A stretch of DNA of 64,000 nucleotides. It comes from Pseudomonas fragi. Lineage in GTDB: Bacteria > Pseudomonadota > Gammaproteobacteria > Pseudomonadales > Pseudomonadaceae. The notes under the pieces are model-generated. The model was not told the origin of the DNA and searched no databases. It was given only the letters and a program-made list of their open reading frames with translations. The translations under genes and the position numbers were made by a program. Location: assembly GCF_900105835.1 (NCBI RefSeq), contig NZ_LT629783.1:4238501-4302500 (forward strand). Direction: 5' to 3'. Of the stretch, positions 20,284-52,930 are shown piece after piece (position 1 is the first letter of the stretch; each line of letters opens with the position of its first letter).

Positions 20284-20368
20284 TGGTGCCCCGAGGGAGA
20301 ATCGAACTCCCACTTCTTTCGAAAACGGATTTTGAATCCGCCGCGTCTACCAATTCCGCCATCAGGGC
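20284..20368 (-). tRNA. tRNA-Leu (anticodon CAA)
   Basis: The minus strand gives an 85-base tRNA with encoded CCA. The acceptor stem is GCCCTGA with TCGGGGC; the D arm has GGCGGAATTGGTAGAC; the anticodon loop TTCAAAA gives CAA; there is a long variable arm as in leucine tRNAs; the T arm reads GGAGTTCGATTCTCC. It decodes UUG. Leucine tRNA genes are common integration points for mobile DNA, relevant to the odd DNA downstream (18545-20193). Confidence 0.95.
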
Positions 20369-46678: not shown

Positions 46679-48358
46679 TTACGCTGCTTTCGCCTCGGCT
46701 TCGCTCAGTGAGCGGTTCAGGGCGCTGAACAGGGCCTTGAAGCTTGCCGTAGTGATGTTTTCATCGATGCCCACGCCGTGTACGGCACGGCCGCCATTGA
46801 CCCGCAGCTCGATGTAGGCAGCGGCCTTGGCGTTGGTGCCCGCGCCAATCGCGTGCTCGTTGTAGTCCATTATTTCGGCATTGACCGGCAGACCGGCCAC
46901 CAGCGCTTCCAGTGCGCCATTGCCTTTGCCGCTCCAGCGCAGGTTGGTCTCGCCATCACCCTTGGCCGATACTTCCACCTCGACTGCACTGTGGCCGTTT
47001 TCTTCCTGCAAGCGATGGCTGACCAGCGCGTACGGGGTATTGGCCTGCAAGTATTCGGTGCGCAGCAAACTGTGAATCTGCTGGGCAGTCATTTCCAGGC
47101 CCAGGCGGTCGGTTTCGCGCTGTACCACCTGGCTGAATTCGATCTGCATGCGACGCGGCAGGCTGATGCCGTATTCCTGCTCCAGCAGGTAGGCAATCCC
47201 GCCTTTGCCGGACTGGCTGTTAACCCGGATCACGGCCTCGTAGCTGCGACCGATATCCGCCGGGTCGATCGGCAAGTACGGCACTTCCCACAGGGCGTCC
47301 GGTTTTTGCTGGGCGAAGCCTTTGCGGATGGCGTCCTGGTGCGAGCCGGAGAACGCGGTGTGCACCAGGTCGCCCACATACGGGTGACGCGGGTGAACCG
47401 GGATCTGGTTGCACTCTTCGACAACCTTGCGCACGCCATCGATATCCGAGAAGTCCAGCTGCGGGTCCAGGCCCTGGGTGTACATGTTCAGGGCCACTGT
47501 CACCAGGTCGACGTTGCCGGTACGCTCGCCGTTGCCGAACAGGCAACCTTCGACACGGTCGGCGCCGGCCATCAGGCCCAGCTCGGTAGCGGCCACGCCG
47601 GTGCCGCGGTCGTTGTGGGTGTGCAGGCTAATCAGCACGCTGTCACGGCGGTTGATATTGCGCCCGAACCACTCGATCTGGTCGGCATAGATGTTCGGTG
47701 TTGCGCACTCAACCGTGGCCGGCAGGTTGAGGATCATCTTGTGCTCAGGGGTCGGGTTCCACACCTCGATCACCGCGTCACACACTTCTTTGGCGAACTC
47801 CAGCTCGGTGGCGCTGAAGGTCTCTGGCGAGTACTCGAACGTCCACTGGGTTTCCGGCTGCTGGGCGGCGTATTTGACGAACAGCTTGGCCGCGCTGACC
47901 GCGATTTCCTTGATGCCGTCCTTGTCCTGGTTGAACACGATGCGGCGGAACGCAGGGCAGGTGGCGTTGTACAGGTGAACGATGGCTTTTTTCGCCCCGC
48001 GCAGCGACTCGAAGGTGCGCGCGATCAAGTCTTCACGGCCCTGGGTGAGCACCTGGATGGTGGTGTCGTCCGGGATATGGCCATCTTCGATCAAGGTGCG
48101 CACAAAGTCGAAGTCGGTTTGCGATGCCGCCGGGAACGATGCCTCGATTTCTTTAACGCCCACGCTGACCAGGGTCTTCCAGAAACGTAGCTTCTTCACC
48201 GCATCCATCGGCTCGATCAGCGACTGGTTGCCGTCGCGCAGGTCGGAGCTGCACCAGATCGGCGCGCTGGTGATGGTTTTCGACGGCCAGGTACGGTCGG
48301 GCAAATCAATGACCGGGAAGGCGCGGTATTTGGAAGACGGGTCTTTGAGCATGGTCAT
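46679..48358 (-). CDS. leuA: 2-isopropylmalate synthase
   Basis: The 559-residue LeuA condenses acetyl-CoA with 2-ketoisovalerate, the first committed step to leucine. Catalytic TIM barrel with [11 protein letters not shown] (metal and catalytic residues), [20 protein letters not shown] and [13 protein letters not shown]-terminal regulatory domain (about 425-555) that binds leucine for feedback inhibition. This is the longer LeuA form found in pseudomonads and yeast. ATG 48358 has AAGGA about 10 bases upstream. A 25-codon leader ORF and two alternative hairpins lie upstream, suggesting attenuation by leucine supply. Confidence 0.96.
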
Positions 48359-48406
48359 CAGGCAATCCTTAATATGCAGGCCGACGATTCAAACGCGGCC
48401 AGCCGG

Positions 48407-48449
48407 AAAAATACAAAGCAGAAGGCGAGGCACCGCAACTAGCTTTGCA
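48407..48449 (-). terminator. Candidate leuA attenuator terminator (3:4 hairpin)
   Basis: In the leuA transcript, TGCAAAGC (48449-48442) pairs with GCTTTGTA (48419-48412) over 8 positions (one G-U) and is followed by five T (48411-48407). The first arm is the end of a leader ORF and can instead pair with CTTTGC at 48471-48466. Confidence 0.6.
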
Positions 48450-48516
48450 GTCGTGCGCTGACGAGGCAAAGGCTGCGATGTTGGCGAAGCAGAAAGAGGG
48501 TATGTGATGTGTTCAT
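48439..48516 (-). CDS. Candidate leuA leader peptide, 25 codons
   Basis: Short frame starting ATG 48516, 3 bases after GAGG, and ending TAG 81 bases before leuA. The peptide begins MNTSHTLFLLRQHRSL and has 6 leucines in 25 residues; four of them use CTT or CTC, which are rare in this GC-rich genome where CTG dominates. Its codons 16-17 (CTTTGC) can pair with codons 23-25 (GCAAAG), and that pairing excludes the terminator hairpin at 48407-48449. This is what a leucine-sensing leader would look like. Not a recognised protein; inferred from position, codons and RNA structure. Confidence 0.5.
   Translation of the reverse strand: MNTSHTLFLLRQHRSLCLVSARLQS
48443..48471 (-). promoter_or_regulatory. 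Candidate leuA antiterminator hairpin (2:3)
   Basis: CTTTGC (48471-48466) with GCAAAG (48448-48443), reinforced by an inner GTC/GAC pair. It uses the same GCAAAG arm as the terminator, so only one of the two can form. Confidence 0.5.
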
Positions 48517-48757
48517 GACCTCAACCCTAACCATTGGTGAGAAGGATGGCAAGCCAACAAAAAAGATTGAGAGGACTGCTCGTATATGGCGCGTATTTGG
48601 GTTTTTATTGCGCCTTACGGTTAGCGACATAGCATTAATTGCGCAGCTAAACAGCTGGGCGTATGTCGGGTGCTGTTGGCTTGATGGCATTTATGCCTGG
48701 GCAGGTTCAATCAGCAAGAGCCCCTGGCAGCTCGACAGGGTTTTTCGCCGGTGAAGC

Positions 48758-48937: not shown

Positions 48938-49687
48938 ATGCGTATTTATAGCTATCTCTTTCTGATGATGGGTTGCCTTGGGGGGGCAAGCGCTTCACCT
49001 GCGATCAATCCAGGGCCGATGTTCGGCTTTCTGGATGACGGCAAAAGCGCGGTCCTCAAGCGTATTTACAATTCTGGAACCAGTACCGCATTTGTCAAAG
49101 TGGTGGTTCAGGAAATCACCTATGACGCCAGTGGCCAGCCTGTAGAGCAACCGCCCAAGGCCCTGTCGGCGGCGCCCCTGGCGCAGCAGAACACCTTGCT
49201 GGCCAGCCCGGCACGGATGATTATTCCAGCCAACGGCATGCAATCCACCCGGTTGTTGTTTATGGGCAGTCGGGCACAAGAGCGCTATTACCGGGTTCGT
49301 TTTATTCCTGTGCTGCCGTCCAGTGCCGACAGTTTTGATCAAAGTGCAGATGATCAGCAGGCCTACAAGAACACCCTGGCGGCGCAAGTCACGTTATTAA
49401 CCGGCTTTGGCACGCTGTTGTTTGTTCGCCCGGACAAGGTTGTTTTTGATACGCGGTTAAAAGACGAAAAAGATACTTACAGTGTTCACAATGCCGGTAA
49501 CAGTGTCATTGCACTGGACTTCGTTAAAACCTGCCACGTTGAAATAACCACGCAGTGTTCGGCCATTGCCCAACATTATGTCTTGCCGGGCAGAACTTAT
49601 ACGTTCACTAAAGAGCCTGACAAGGTCCACAGTTTTGTCCTTCAAGAAGGCCGTGCCGAGCGCACGATATCGTTCAGCACGACCTGA
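48938..49687 (+). CDS. CFA/I (CS1)-type fimbrial chaperone
   Basis: A 249-residue periplasmic pilus chaperone: signal peptide to about residue 19 (GGASA then SPAINPGPMFGFLDDG), then two immunoglobulin-like domains. The PARMIIPANGMQSTRLLF stretch holds the conserved arginine/strand used for donor-strand complementation, and AQVTLLTGFGTLLFVRPDKV is the domain junction. It is of the alternate chaperone class (CfaA, CooB, CblB), not PapD. First gene in the order chaperone, pilin, usher, tip, the same as cfaABCE. Confidence 0.85.
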   Translation: MRIYSYLFLMMGCLGGASASPAINPGPMFGFLDDGKSAVLKRIYNSGTSTAFVKVVVQEITYDASGQPVEQPPKALSAAPLAQQNTLLASPARMIIPANGMQSTRLLFMGSRAQERYYRVRFIPVLPSSADSFDQSADDQQAYKNTLAAQVTLLTGFGTLLFVRPDKVVFDTRLKDEKDTYSVHNAGNSVIALDFVKTCHVEITTQCSAIAQHYVLPGRTYTFTKEPDKVHSFVLQEGRAERTISFSTT

Positions 49688-49746
49688 GAGTTGATCACCG
49701 ATAAATGTTTCACCCCTAACTATAAACCTGAAAAAAGGAAGTAAAA

Positions 49747-50277
49747 ATGCAACGCACTTTTATGGCTACTGTGAGTCCATTGGCTCTTGCCTTGTTTGCC
49801 ACCCTGGGCGCTACACATGTTTCGGCGGCTGACCCTGTCGAAGTGCAAGTTCAGTTGGTCGCGAGTGTTCCATCGAGCTCGTTCTATGTTGTACCCGCTG
49901 ATACTGGCTGGATCGGCGTGCCACAGCGCATGGAGTGGACGCCTGATCCGGTCTCGCCCGGTGGCGGCAAGTTGAGCACCTTGCGTAAAGCCTTTGATGT
50001 AAAAAACAGCTCAGGGGCTATTGCTGCGCGCTTGACCGACAGCGGCGGCGCTTACCTGTATGCAGGGACCGGCATGGTGCCCCTGGAAGTTAAATTCAAT
50101 AATATGGAACTTAATTCCACCGCCAATCAGGAAGTTGTCAGCGCCACTGAAGCGGCCGCCGGTAAACGTGTGGATCTGACCATTGCAACGGTTTATACCG
50201 GCAGTGCAATCCCGCCCGGCGAATATACCGGTATCGTCAATATGACGTTTGATGCAGTTGCCCCTGCGGCCATTTAA
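49747..50277 (+). CDS. CS1-type major pilin subunit
   Basis: A 176-residue pilin with a signal peptide ending near residue 27 (GATHVSA then ADPVEVQVQLVA). The mature protein lacks cysteines, and its opening PVEVQVQLVASVPSS is the donor strand that fills the neighbouring subunit, as in CfaB/CooA/CblA. The end ...EYTGIVNMTFDA fits the family. GGAAG lies 7 bases before ATG 49747. A strong hairpin downstream (50317) probably keeps this message at a higher level than the usher. Confidence 0.88.
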   Translation: MQRTFMATVSPLALALFATLGATHVSAADPVEVQVQLVASVPSSSFYVVPADTGWIGVPQRMEWTPDPVSPGGGKLSTLRKAFDVKNSSGAIAARLTDSGGAYLYAGTGMVPLEVKFNNMELNSTANQEVVSATEAAAGKRVDLTIATVYTGSAIPPGEYTGIVNMTFDAVAPAAI

Positions 50278-50316
50278 AACGTCTCTGCTCACTGACACGT
50301 TCTAACGCTCTCTTTT

Positions 50317-50354
50317 CAGGCAGTCGACTGGCGCTTGACGCTTGCGCCTGCCTG
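50317..50354 (+). other. Hairpin between pilin and usher genes
   Basis: CAGGCA (50317-50322) pairs with TGCCTG (50349-50354), and GGCGC (50330-50334) with GCGCC (50344-50348). No T-run follows, so it likely stabilises the pilin message or partly stops transcription. Confidence 0.6.
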
Positions 50355-50422
50355 GAAATAGAGGTGTGCAGTTTTATATAAACGATGTCCGTTCGTTTGG
50401 ATAACTACAATTGAACTCTGCA

Positions 50423-52930
50423 ATGGCTCGTGCCCTGATAGTGTGCTGCTCGATATTAATGACGGGCGGCGTTATGGCTGAAGTTAAAGCGCCGTCAACC
50501 CTGGGAGTGTTAAGTCAGGCAGAACAGTTGCCGGCCGGCTTTCAGGAACACTTCTTTGATGTGCCTCTGGCGGTGCGTGTCGATGTCAACGCACAGTTGC
50601 TCGGGGATGCACTGGTGGTGCTTGGTCGCGATGAAACCATCCGCCTGCTGAGCTTTACCGATACCCAGGCCAGCGCCTTGCCCGAGGCCGATCGTGCCCA
50701 GTGGCTGGCGCAATTGTCCACGCCGACGGCTCTGGGCAGTTGCACCGCGAACTGTGGCAATGGCCTGGTGGCCTTGCATTACAACCTGCAGGACTCGCAG
50801 TTTTCGATTTTGACCGACGCGGTAGAGCGGGAGCGCGCACCCGCCCAGTACCATGCCCTGCCCGAAGACGGCAGTGATGGCCTGATTTTGCACAATCAGT
50901 TGAACATCGCCCGCAGTGGCGGCTCCCAGGCTGGCACGGCAGCACGCTATAACGTCCAGGCCTCGAGCAGCCTCGGCAACTGGACCCAGGTGGCTTCGGC
51001 CGAACTGGCGCGAACCGGTGAACCCGGTGCCCCCACCTATCACTCCCTGAACCAGCTTTACGGCCAGCGCGAGTTCGCCGGCAACTTTTTCCGCCTGGGC
51101 TATTTCACCCCCGACGCACTGGGTGTGTATCGCCGGCCCCGCAATTTTGGCGCCAGCCCGGACACCACGCTGGGTTTCATGTATGGCACCAGCGACAGCC
51201 TGGCGGTCAGCAACGCCAGCCCCAGTACCTACCCCATTTATGTCACGCCAAGCCGGCAGGGCCTGGTCGAGGTGTACCGCGACGGCGTGCTGATTTACAG
51301 CCAGGCGGTTGCCAGCGGCTTGCAGACCCTGGACACCCGGCGTTTGCCCGGTGGTATCTACCCGGTGCAGGTGCGTCTGCTCGAGGATGGCCAAGTGACG
51401 TCCACGACCGAAGAAATGATCTACAAACCCACCAACTGGCGTAATGCCGATCAACCCTGGCGTTACAGCGTTTTTGCCGGGAAACGCCGCCAGTTGTTGA
51501 ACAACTGGGGTGATGACGTGCAATACGATCAGGGGCTGACTTACGGTGCCCTGGTCAATTACCTGCTGCACCCGCGAGTGATTCTGGGGGTTGATGCCCA
51601 GCGCGTCGCGCAAAAAATGCAATACGGCAGCTCGCTCGACTGGGGCCTGTCAGACCATTTCAGCCTCTACAGCAATGTGTATCAAACGGCTGGCTACGGC
51701 ACAGGCATGGACCTGCAGGCGCGTTACCAATATCACGGCGGCAGTGCGATGTTTTCTCACTCGCGGTCCTGGCTGGATACGCGCAACGATATTGATTACC
51801 TGGACACCGTCGCGGTTCGCCCCAGGAGCCGCTACAACGGCCGTACGCAAAACACGGCGGTGTCCTTGACCCAGCGCCTGAGCGCGAGCAGCAGCCTGAC
51901 CGGCCGGGTCAGCCACAGCAGTGGCAACACCAACGGTACCGGCGTTGATCTGAGCTGGATCCGCAGCAGCAAGTTGTTTGGCAGTGATGTGCACTGGCAG
52001 GTATCGCTGTTCGACCGCCCGGCCACCCTCAGCACCGGGAACCAGCGTAACCGCGGCATCGACCTGAGCATCAACCTGGCGCTGGGCAAGCCGGCCGGCA
52101 GCCTGTCGGCCAGTATCGGCAGCCGTACTGCGCGTGATGGCGCACGCGAACTCAATGGCTCGCTGGGCTACAACAAGACCCTTGAAGGCGACTTCTTCAA
52201 AAGCTATTCCACCGGCCTTACCGCCGACAGTTATGGCGTGGGCCTCAATGCCTCGACCCAGTTTGAAACCCCTGAACTCAACGGCGATGCCTACGCCCAG
52301 CGGTCGTCCTATGACGGTGAGTTCAGCGGTGGCTTGAACATCAACAGTACCGTGGCCGCTGGCGCGGGCGCCCTGGCGGCCAGCGGCAGTTTTTACGGCG
52401 GTGACGGGGCAATGATTGTCGACCTCGACTCGGATATCGACAACCTGGTGTTGCGTGCCGATGACATGGGCGGCAGCTATGGTGCCCAGCTCAAGCCCGG
52501 TCGCAACATGGTGCCGGTGGCGGCTTACAAAAGTGGCACGGTGCACTTCGATTTTACGGGCAATGATGCCCATGCCGCGTCCATCCAGCCGCCACACGCG
52601 CGTTATCACCTCAATAAAGGCGGTGTGCTGTACCAGCAGGTGCGGGTGCTTAAAACCGTGTCGGTACTTGGCCGGGTGGTCGACCCCCAGGGTCGCCCGA
52701 TGGCGGGCGCTCATATTCTCAATCACGCCAGCAGCGGGGTCAGCGAGGCCGACGGGTTCTTTGTGCTGGAGATGAGCGAGTCGTCACCCAGCCTGCAAAT
52801 ACATCATCGGGGGCAACCGGCCTGCAATGTTGTGCTGGAACCCGACCGGCACAAGCGGGAAAACAATGTGTTGCTGGTGGCCGATATCGTCTGTCGCGCA
52901 GCTTCACTGGGGGTCGCCAAGGGGGCATGA
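50423..52930 (+). CDS. CS1-type outer-membrane usher
   Basis: An 835-residue usher (CfaC/CooC/CblC class) that exports and joins pilin subunits. Signal peptide (ARALIVCCSILMTGGVMAEV), N-terminal periplasmic domain, a large barrel (about 130-700; GTAARYNVQASSSLGNWTQV and YSVFAGKRRQLLNNWGDDVQ) and C-terminal domains including a carboxypeptidase-like fold (VLGRVVDPQGRPMAGAHILN). I prefer ATG 50423 to TTG 50411; neither has a good ribosome site, which suggests low translation. Usual length for the class. Confidence 0.85.
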   Translation: MARALIVCCSILMTGGVMAEVKAPSTLGVLSQAEQLPAGFQEHFFDVPLAVRVDVNAQLLGDALVVLGRDETIRLLSFTDTQASALPEADRAQWLAQLSTPTALGSCTANCGNGLVALHYNLQDSQFSILTDAVERERAPAQYHALPEDGSDGLILHNQLNIARSGGSQAGTAARYNVQASSSLGNWTQVASAELARTGEPGAPTYHSLNQLYGQREFAGNFFRLGYFTPDALGVYRRPRNFGASPDTTLGFMYGTSDSLAVSNASPSTYPIYVTPSRQGLVEVYRDGVLIYSQAVASGLQTLDTRRLPGGIYPVQVRLLEDGQVTSTTEEMIYKPTNWRNADQPWRYSVFAGKRRQLLNNWGDDVQYDQGLTYGALVNYLLHPRVILGVDAQRVAQKMQYGSSLDWGLSDHFSLYSNVYQTAGYGTGMDLQARYQYHGGSAMFSHSRSWLDTRNDIDYLDTVAVRPRSRYNGRTQNTAVSLTQRLSASSSLTGRVSHSSGNTNGTGVDLSWIRSSKLFGSDVHWQVSLFDRPATLSTGNQRNRGIDLSINLALGKPAGSLSASIGSRTARDGARELNGSLGYNKTLEGDFFKSYSTGLTADSYGVGLNASTQFETPELNGDAYAQRSSYDGEFSGGLNINSTVAAGAGALAASGSFYGGDGAMIVDLDSDIDNLVLRADDMGGSYGAQLKPGRNMVPVAAYKSGTVHFDFTGNDAHAASIQPPHARYHLNKGGVLYQQVRVLKTVSVLGRVVDPQGRPMAGAHILNHASSGVSEADGFFVLEMSESSPSLQIHHRGQPACNVVLEPDRHKRENNVLLVADIVCRAASLGVAKGA

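Follow-up and report, generated by a model that had tools for sequence, protein, structure and literature searches.

Directly upstream of leuA in Pseudomonas fragi lies a short reading frame whose product is conserved at the level of its amino-acid sequence, not only here but in much of the Pseudomonadaceae. We think that this frame is probably a genuine conserved regulatory leader and that its translation matters to leuA. With somewhat more confidence than doubt, we propose that the leader controls leuA by ribosome-gated, probably Rho-dependent, attenuation. Amino-acid leader peptides are usually recognized by runs of a single codon and by terminator hairpins; most of the family has neither at this locus, so searches of that kind would miss a leader that persists upstream of leuA across much of a large and well-studied family.

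Layout of the leuA locus

The DNA analyzed is a stretch of 64,000 nucleotides (the window), and coordinates are counted from its first letter. Read directly on the minus strand, the leader begins with an ATG at 48516 and ends with a TAG at 48441-48439, and leuA begins with an ATG at 48358. The features of the locus are as follows.

48559..48568 (−): T-rich, UP-like tract AATCTTTTTT upstream of the -35 element; T tract conserved in 41 representatives, UP function putative
48547..48552 (−): predicted -35 element TTGCCA, with a 17-base spacer to the -10 element; TTGC and the final A invariant in 41/41 representatives
48524..48529 (−): predicted -10 element TAGGGT, ending 7 bases before the leader ATG; TANNNT 6-8 bases from the ATG in 167/167 distinct sequences
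48439..48516 (−): leader peptide frame, 25 codons plus TAG, MNTSHTLFLLRQHRSLCLVSARLQS, from sequence; homologs in 80 named Pseudomonas loci and in 66/119 family genomes
48451..48453 (−): Arg22 codon CGA; CGA in 137/138 distinct leaders
48412..48449 (−): terminator-like stem of TGCAAAGC (48449-48442) with GCTTTGTA (48419-48412), loop of 22, then TTTTT; window and clade L001-L005
48359..48438 (−): spacer of 80 bases from the leader stop to leuA, a candidate rut region; C-rich across most of the family, the window excepted; here it holds the GCTTTG arm and a T run
48366..48370 (−): leuA Shine-Dalgarno (SD) sequence AAGGA, from sequence and anti-SD energy
46679..48358 (−): leuA, 2-isopropylmalate synthase, 559 aa; TIGR00970 at 792.6 bits (cut-off 697.4), NF002991 also over its cut-off, HMGL-like, LeuA_dimer

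A sequence-only reading of this DNA had described the frame as the leader of a leucine-sensing attenuator. Its 25 codons are borne out as a real frame, strongly conserved before leuA, at a spacing of 80 bases where that reading gave 81, and the minus strand does hold six leucine codons (CTC, CTG, CTT, CTT, CTC and CTG), four of them CTT or CTC. Divergent from leuA, a CS1-type fimbrial cluster occupies 48938-52930 (+), with the CS1 major subunit at 49747-50277 (+) and a TcfC/CooC-like usher at 50411-52930 (+); for the first gene of the cluster, of 249 aa, no Pfam or NCBIfam model passed the cut-offs applied. The window also carries a tRNA-Leu with anticodon CAA at 20284-20368 (−).

The leader peptide is conserved in much of the Pseudomonadaceae

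The family consensus of the peptide is approximately MKTAHTLILLRQHxCLxLVSPRLRG. The leader precedes leuA in 80/80 named Pseudomonas loci, these being the best 80 of 593 matches, and its commonest form there is MKTSHTLIQLRQHRSLCLVSARLPG. Across the genus it is found in 97 of 99 genomes, 86 by a DNA match across the leader and 11 by peptide profile, with the frame itself read at those loci whose sequence was retrieved. The DNA search gave 88 matches, from which two genomes (G013 and G093) were excluded from the leader count because their matches touch the leuA start only. In G014 and G093, the two genus genomes that lack the peptide, promoter and ATG persist above short decayed frames. In genome G046 (L091/L269), a frameshift falls within an otherwise normal leader, where true loss and sequencing error are indistinguishable.

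A peptide search of the family matched 67 of 119 Pseudomonadaceae genomes at E ≤ 0.001. One of these matches (G200, E 6e-4) contains an internal stop, was taken as chance and was dropped; 66/119 genomes match at E ≤ 1.8e-8 and are spread over 11 of the 19 genera. Eighteen unmatched family genomes were examined further; one of these (G108) carries a divergent relative, MNISQALFLPKQHLRLQHLVSSRLRN, and no such frame was seen in the remaining 17. Outside the family, searches of the order (293 genomes), class (369), and phylum (299) gave no convincing match, with best E values of 3.3e-4, 1.4e-3, and 5.2e-4, respectively; with no more than 23 to 29 candidates scored in each genome, distant relatives may have been missed. 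The weak matches in the order and class came to 17 loci, 13 of which were inspected and none of which lay before leuA; outside this inspection were L145, L150, L155, and L158, which are too short, and the phylum match G1061, which has an internal stop. The window's genome holds a single match to the leader peptide, at leuA, and NCBIfam and Pfam scans of three leader peptides returned no family.

The pattern of substitution points to selection on the peptide itself, because the amino acids persist while the third bases of their codons change. In a set of 124 distinct leaders (65 peptides, drawn from 174/183 loci and 167 distinct regions), the entropies in codons 11-23 are 0.42, 0.16, and 0.89 bits for codon positions 1, 2, and 3, and pN/pS over the same codons is 0.28 (34 spread leaders out of the 124). 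The AT-rich relatives L184 and L185 likewise keep the residues with different codons. In 23 diverse rows, M1, L7, R11, Q12, L18, V19, R22, and L23 are invariant; the leader of L263 is an exception in which both R11 and R22 are lost. Length is also well kept, at 25 aa in 151/167 distinct leaders, with nine leaders of 31 aa. Leucine occupies codons 7, 18, and 23 in 124/124 distinct leaders and codon 16 in 121/124, but codon 9 in only 76/124 and codon 10 in only 107/124. The proposal that the ribosome stalls at Leu codons 7-10 is therefore not supported at family scale.

A promoter at a fixed distance from the leader start codon

We searched for promoters at distances of 2 to 39 bases upstream of the leader ATG. 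In 167/167 distinct upstream regions, the best-scoring one has the form TTGNNN, 17 or 18 bases, TANNNT and ends 6-8 bases before the ATG (6 bases in 13 sequences, 7 in 147, and 8 in 7). In 41 representatives of less than 85% similarity, drawn from 165 sequences with a complete spacer, the TTGC..A of the -35 element and the TA...T of the -10 element are 100% conserved, the promoter spacer columns stand at about 0.4-0.7, and the T tract directly upstream of the -35 element reaches 0.98 per column. Because the promoter sits at this fixed distance from the ATG, we predict that the leuA mRNA probably begins at the leader ATG and is leaderless.

The two starts of the locus differ in their pairing with the anti-SD sequence. 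An energy of at most −4.4 kcal/mol is reached by 151/165 leuA starts versus 30/165 leader starts, and the pairing at leader starts is moderate, with a mean of −3.97 versus 0.30 in a control stretch. This pairing probably comes from the AGGG of the -10 region. The GAGG of the window, which had been read as the leader's own ribosome site, ends 2 bases before the ATG, a gap too close for a functional SD site, and it is not conserved; with the pairing probably due to the -10 AGGG, it is better read as part of the stretch between the -10 element and the start. A start farther upstream, with SD-led translation of the leader, may be an alternative to the leaderless start.

We also scanned 19 leuA loci from other families of the order, some of which have unrelated Leu-rich short frames upstream (L239, L232, L227, and L236). 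At two of the 19, L232 (MNMIPGHCERLLELALLLAQ) and L239 (MNSHNTLTLLLTSLLGLL), the ATG follows a promoter-like -10 element by 6-7 bases. Because their promoter-to-ATG spacing is alike, leaderless Leu leaders may be old in the order, the Pseudomonadaceae form having since been fixed as a peptide.

Codon 22 of the leader is almost always CGA

A second feature of the leader is its Arg22 codon, which is CGA in 137/138 distinct leaders (L263, the exception, has CAA for Gln) and also in three divergent leaders outside that set (L068, L196, and L277). In the leuA genes of the same loci (141 sequences), CGA makes up 0.6% of Arg codons, and at each of 20 invariant Arg positions of LeuA in these loci it occurs 0 to 2 times. 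Arg11 of the leader, nearly as invariant as Arg22, uses CGC, CGT, CGG, and CGA. That a rare codon is nearly fixed where other third positions drift freely is a sign of codon-level control that can be tested directly.

RNA structure was tested as a reason for CGA22. Replacing CGA22 with CGG stabilizes the local fold by an average of 1.25 to 1.7 kcal/mol, and replacing it with CGC or CGT destabilizes the fold by 0.6 to 1.3 kcal/mol. Pairing alone fails to explain the codon, since CGG would be the more stable choice and is also commoner than CGA in leuA (2.2% versus 0.6%), yet is absent at codon 22 in the 138 distinct leaders. Two neighboring codons are biased as well: V19 is GTC in 134/138 distinct leaders, and S20 is AGT in 49/124, far above its usage in leuA (2.7% of Ser codons). 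These biases would fit a tiny hairpin, and codons 18-24 may contain an RNA element.

CGA may be a slow codon in Pseudomonas. In most bacteria it is described as being decoded by an inosine tRNA that also decodes CGU and CGC (PMC3711424). Against the idea of slow decoding, a tract of CGA codons in Bacillus subtilis is reported not to have impeded translation (PMC10454642).

Composition of the spacer between leader and leuA

Across 158 distinct spacers, the mean C content is 0.388 and the mean G content 0.218, and C exceeds G in 155 of them. The exceptions are the window (C 0.276, G 0.293), L002, and L185, and in L001 and L003 the two are near even. The 5' flanks of other genes in the window have C at 0.273 and G at 0.263, with C exceeding G in 13/26. 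In the 41 representatives, C exceeds G in 41/41 spacers versus 33/41 sequences upstream of the promoter. The C-rich spacer of the family would suit Rho. Several observations speak against a Rho model, however: neither the spacer of the window nor those of its nearest relatives (L001-L003) are C-rich, G in the spacers (0.222) is no lower than in the control upstream of the promoter (0.196), and both the leader of L267, which stops 12 bases before leuA, and the nine leaders of 31 aa leave Rho little untranslated room. By eye, a hairpin of the GGCC-loop-GGCC type recurs just before the leuA SD in family spacers (e.g. L010 and L119), with no T run after it.

A proposed ribosome-gated model for leuA

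From the sequence we have the peptide, the promoter spacing, CGA22, the lack of a conserved terminator or shared hairpin (see below), and a mostly C-rich spacer; from these we infer a ribosome-gated model, under which these genes would respond to leucine. If a ribosome is slowed in the latter half of the leader, transcription would carry on into leuA; if it finishes the leader quickly, transcription would be free to stop. The ribosome would sense Leu-tRNA at Leu16, Leu18, and Leu23 and pause at CGA22, and the nascent RQH..L.LVS.R chain may help to hold it. The output would be premature, probably Rho-dependent, termination in the spacer, perhaps with Rho blocked by the slowed ribosome; in the clade of the window, termination possibly proceeds through a weak GCAAAGC/GCTTTG hairpin followed by five U. 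The speed at which the leader is read would in this way report leucine scarcity, and leuA would be expressed when needed.

More tentatively, and as a possibility that we consider clearly less likely than not, the stall may be programmed across the whole family. The nascent RQH..L.LVS. and an obligatory slow CGA22, read by inosine-adenine wobble, would then hold the ribosome one codon before Leu23, and the leader would be a leaderless, codon-encoded leucine sensor that gates Rho-dependent entry into leuA without a codon run or attenuator hairpins.

The TruA enzyme modifies the anticodon arms of many tRNAs, so the effect of its loss on LeuA may be indirect. In a ΔtruA strain of Pseudomonas putida, LeuA (PP_1025) was raised 4.2-fold (p 3.2e-5), 18 proteins of the 2856 quantified showed a significant change of 2-fold or more, and HisD and HisC were likewise up (PMC7822408). 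The rise of LeuA fits ribosome-gated attenuation, because slower decoding raising LeuA is what that model predicts. The available text of the study discusses leader peptides for the his genes only and offers no explanation for the rise of LeuA, for which the leuA leader provides a simple one (PMC7822408). A check of hisG that these data suggested found a like leader, and the same promoter-ATG pattern, at 0/25 loci (31 genomes had hisG), though HisD and HisC rose.

Part of the same evidence would suit a ligand-sensing arrest peptide, in which the nascent RQH..L.LVS.R, while in the exit tunnel, would sense leucine or an intermediate of the pathway and stall at CGA22, much as TnaC responds to tryptophan, the supply of Leu-tRNA being secondary. 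Four of the residues invariant in the 23 diverse rows are not leucine (R11, Q12, V19, and R22), the length of 25 aa is well kept, and a rare codon closes the conserved block. We nevertheless consider this unlikely. Sensing of tRNA accounts just as well for the TruA effect and for the kept leucines, and neither arginine is retained in L263.

RNA structure and the classical attenuator

The sequence-only reading had a CTTTGC/GCAAAG antiterminator compete with a TGCAAAGC/GCTTTGTA terminator and its five U, with a ribosome stalled at Leu codons 7-10 giving read-through. All three arms exist in the window where they had been placed and are complementary, CTTTGC at 48471-48466, GCAAAG at 48448-48443, and GCTTTGTA at 48419-48412 with five T after it. 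Folding, which had been suggested as a check, lends the scheme no support: the 121-nt segment is no more stable than its shuffles (z −0.31; 73/200 shuffles at least as stable). Between 48000 and 49200, a standard scan for terminators picked up 0 candidate sites, with shuffles giving 1.2, and a looser scan that allows loops up to 30 accepts the TGCAAAGC/GCTTTGTA stem with its 22-base loop. In an Rfam scan of the window, no family but a tRNA reached its gathering score, and Leu_leader was not matched.

Across the 41 representatives, competing hairpins are not supported as a shared property. The helix of leader codons 22-26 with the spacer beats dinucleotide-shuffled spacers at p ≤ 0.05 in only 5/41, a slight excess over the 2 expected (mean z −0.36), and terminator-like hairpins occur in 3/41 with loops of at most 12 and in 8/41 with loops of at most 30. 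Leader folds are somewhat more stable than those of synonymous resamples (mean z −0.80 and −0.90, with 6/41 each at p ≤ 0.05), and no common leader fold emerged among 14 folds compared. Both structure tests thus lean slightly toward structure (means −0.36 and −0.80).

In the clade of the window, the GCAAAGC/GCTTTG stem is kept in 6/6 members (the window and L001-L005) and is absent from the rest of the family. It makes the intrinsic terminator a weak candidate within this clade, where the C-rich spacer is also lost. The five-T run after the stem is present in 3/6 and missing in L003, L004, and L005, and L005 has CTCTGC, which breaks the antiterminator pairing. Within the clade, the terminator arms are identical throughout, which leaves no compensatory change in that stem. 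Leu9 and Leu10 are not conserved among the distinct leaders. The clade of the window also shows the leader end CTGCAAAGC together with the spacer GCTTTG, and its spacers are less C-rich in most members. A local change of terminator type may have taken place here.

As a family-wide mechanism, the classical ribosome-mediated attenuator is not supported: the leaders show no Leu-codon run, no conserved exclusive hairpins, and no conserved intrinsic terminator. It also does not explain the kept RQH..L.LVS.RL and the single CGA codon. We therefore regard it as quite unlikely overall, and as possible within the window's own clade. What stands of the sequence-only reading is a leader peptide tied to leuA, conserved genus-wide, Leu-rich, and probably read by the ribosome to set leuA expression; on present evidence, its hairpin mechanism does not, except perhaps in the clade of the window.

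Translational control and action in trans

Leader translation might instead open or close the leuA ribosome site, or reinitiation might couple the two frames. The distance from codon 25 of the leader to the leuA ATG is 51-256 bases (median 84), and in L267 the gap from stop to start is only the 12 bases noted above. Such control is distinctly improbable in our view, for leuA has a good SD of its own, and sequestration of its ribosome site by the leader, tested by masking in the 41 representatives with pseudoknots outside the model, showed no clear effect: predicted accessibility is 0.538 when the RNA is free, 0.561 once its first 78 bases are masked (higher in 24/41), and 0.534 with synonymous leaders. 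It is very unlikely that the peptide acts in trans after its release, like peTrpL, with its conservation having little to do with cis attenuation; the conserved peptide sequence and the precedent of a leaderless trpL sORF (PMC7298713) would favor this, but the window's genome has its one match at leuA, and the near-invariant CGA codon points to events during translation.

Comparison with known leader peptides

In our literature search, which covered few subscription papers, no title listed describes this leader. The main text of a Pseudomonas aeruginosa 3'-end mapping paper names neither PA3792 nor leucine (PMC8297930).

The leader of the enterobacterial leu operon (leuL, Rfam Leu_leader) is, like the one described here, a Leu-containing peptide upstream of leuA. 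In its textbook form, Leu codons follow one another directly, the leader is served by an SD of its own, and an intrinsic terminator follows. The leucines of the Pseudomonadaceae leader are scattered, and the window has no match to the Rfam Leu_leader model. TnaC of the Escherichia coli tna operon is a non-repetitive peptide of about 24-25 aa followed by Rho-dependent termination; both it and the Pseudomonadaceae leader are non-repetitive, similar in length, and conserved upstream of a gene. The Pseudomonadaceae leader differs from TnaC in its predicted leaderless start and its conserved CGA, its arrest is putative, and the opposite regulatory sense would be expected for a biosynthetic gene. 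The link of TnaC to Rho is mentioned in PMC1262725.

Leaderless leaders of biosynthetic genes have been described elsewhere. In Sinorhizobium meliloti, the leader ORF's own ATG forms the 5' end of the trpL RNA (PMC7298713), as we predict here for leuA; trpL differs in that it encodes a 14-aa Trp leader (peTrpL) of trpE(G) attenuation, and the sequence conservation of alphaproteobacterial trpL peptides is called low in that report. Streptomyces lividans LeuL1, a leuA leader, is reported to be transcribed leaderless and without a typical Rho-independent terminator (PMC8079986; PMC1262725). LeuL1, which is grouped with the actinobacterial LEU element, shares with the Pseudomonadaceae a leader peptide before leuA and a leaderless start, predicted in our case. 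For the actinobacterial leaders, it has been proposed that a pseudoknot element arises by pairing between the leuA SD and a run of Leu codons (MRFGLLLLSCRGEGL). Unlike these, the Pseudomonadaceae leader has no Leu run and no predicted hiding of the SD (pseudoknots lying outside the model used), and it combines a conserved non-Leu core with a near-invariant CGA codon.
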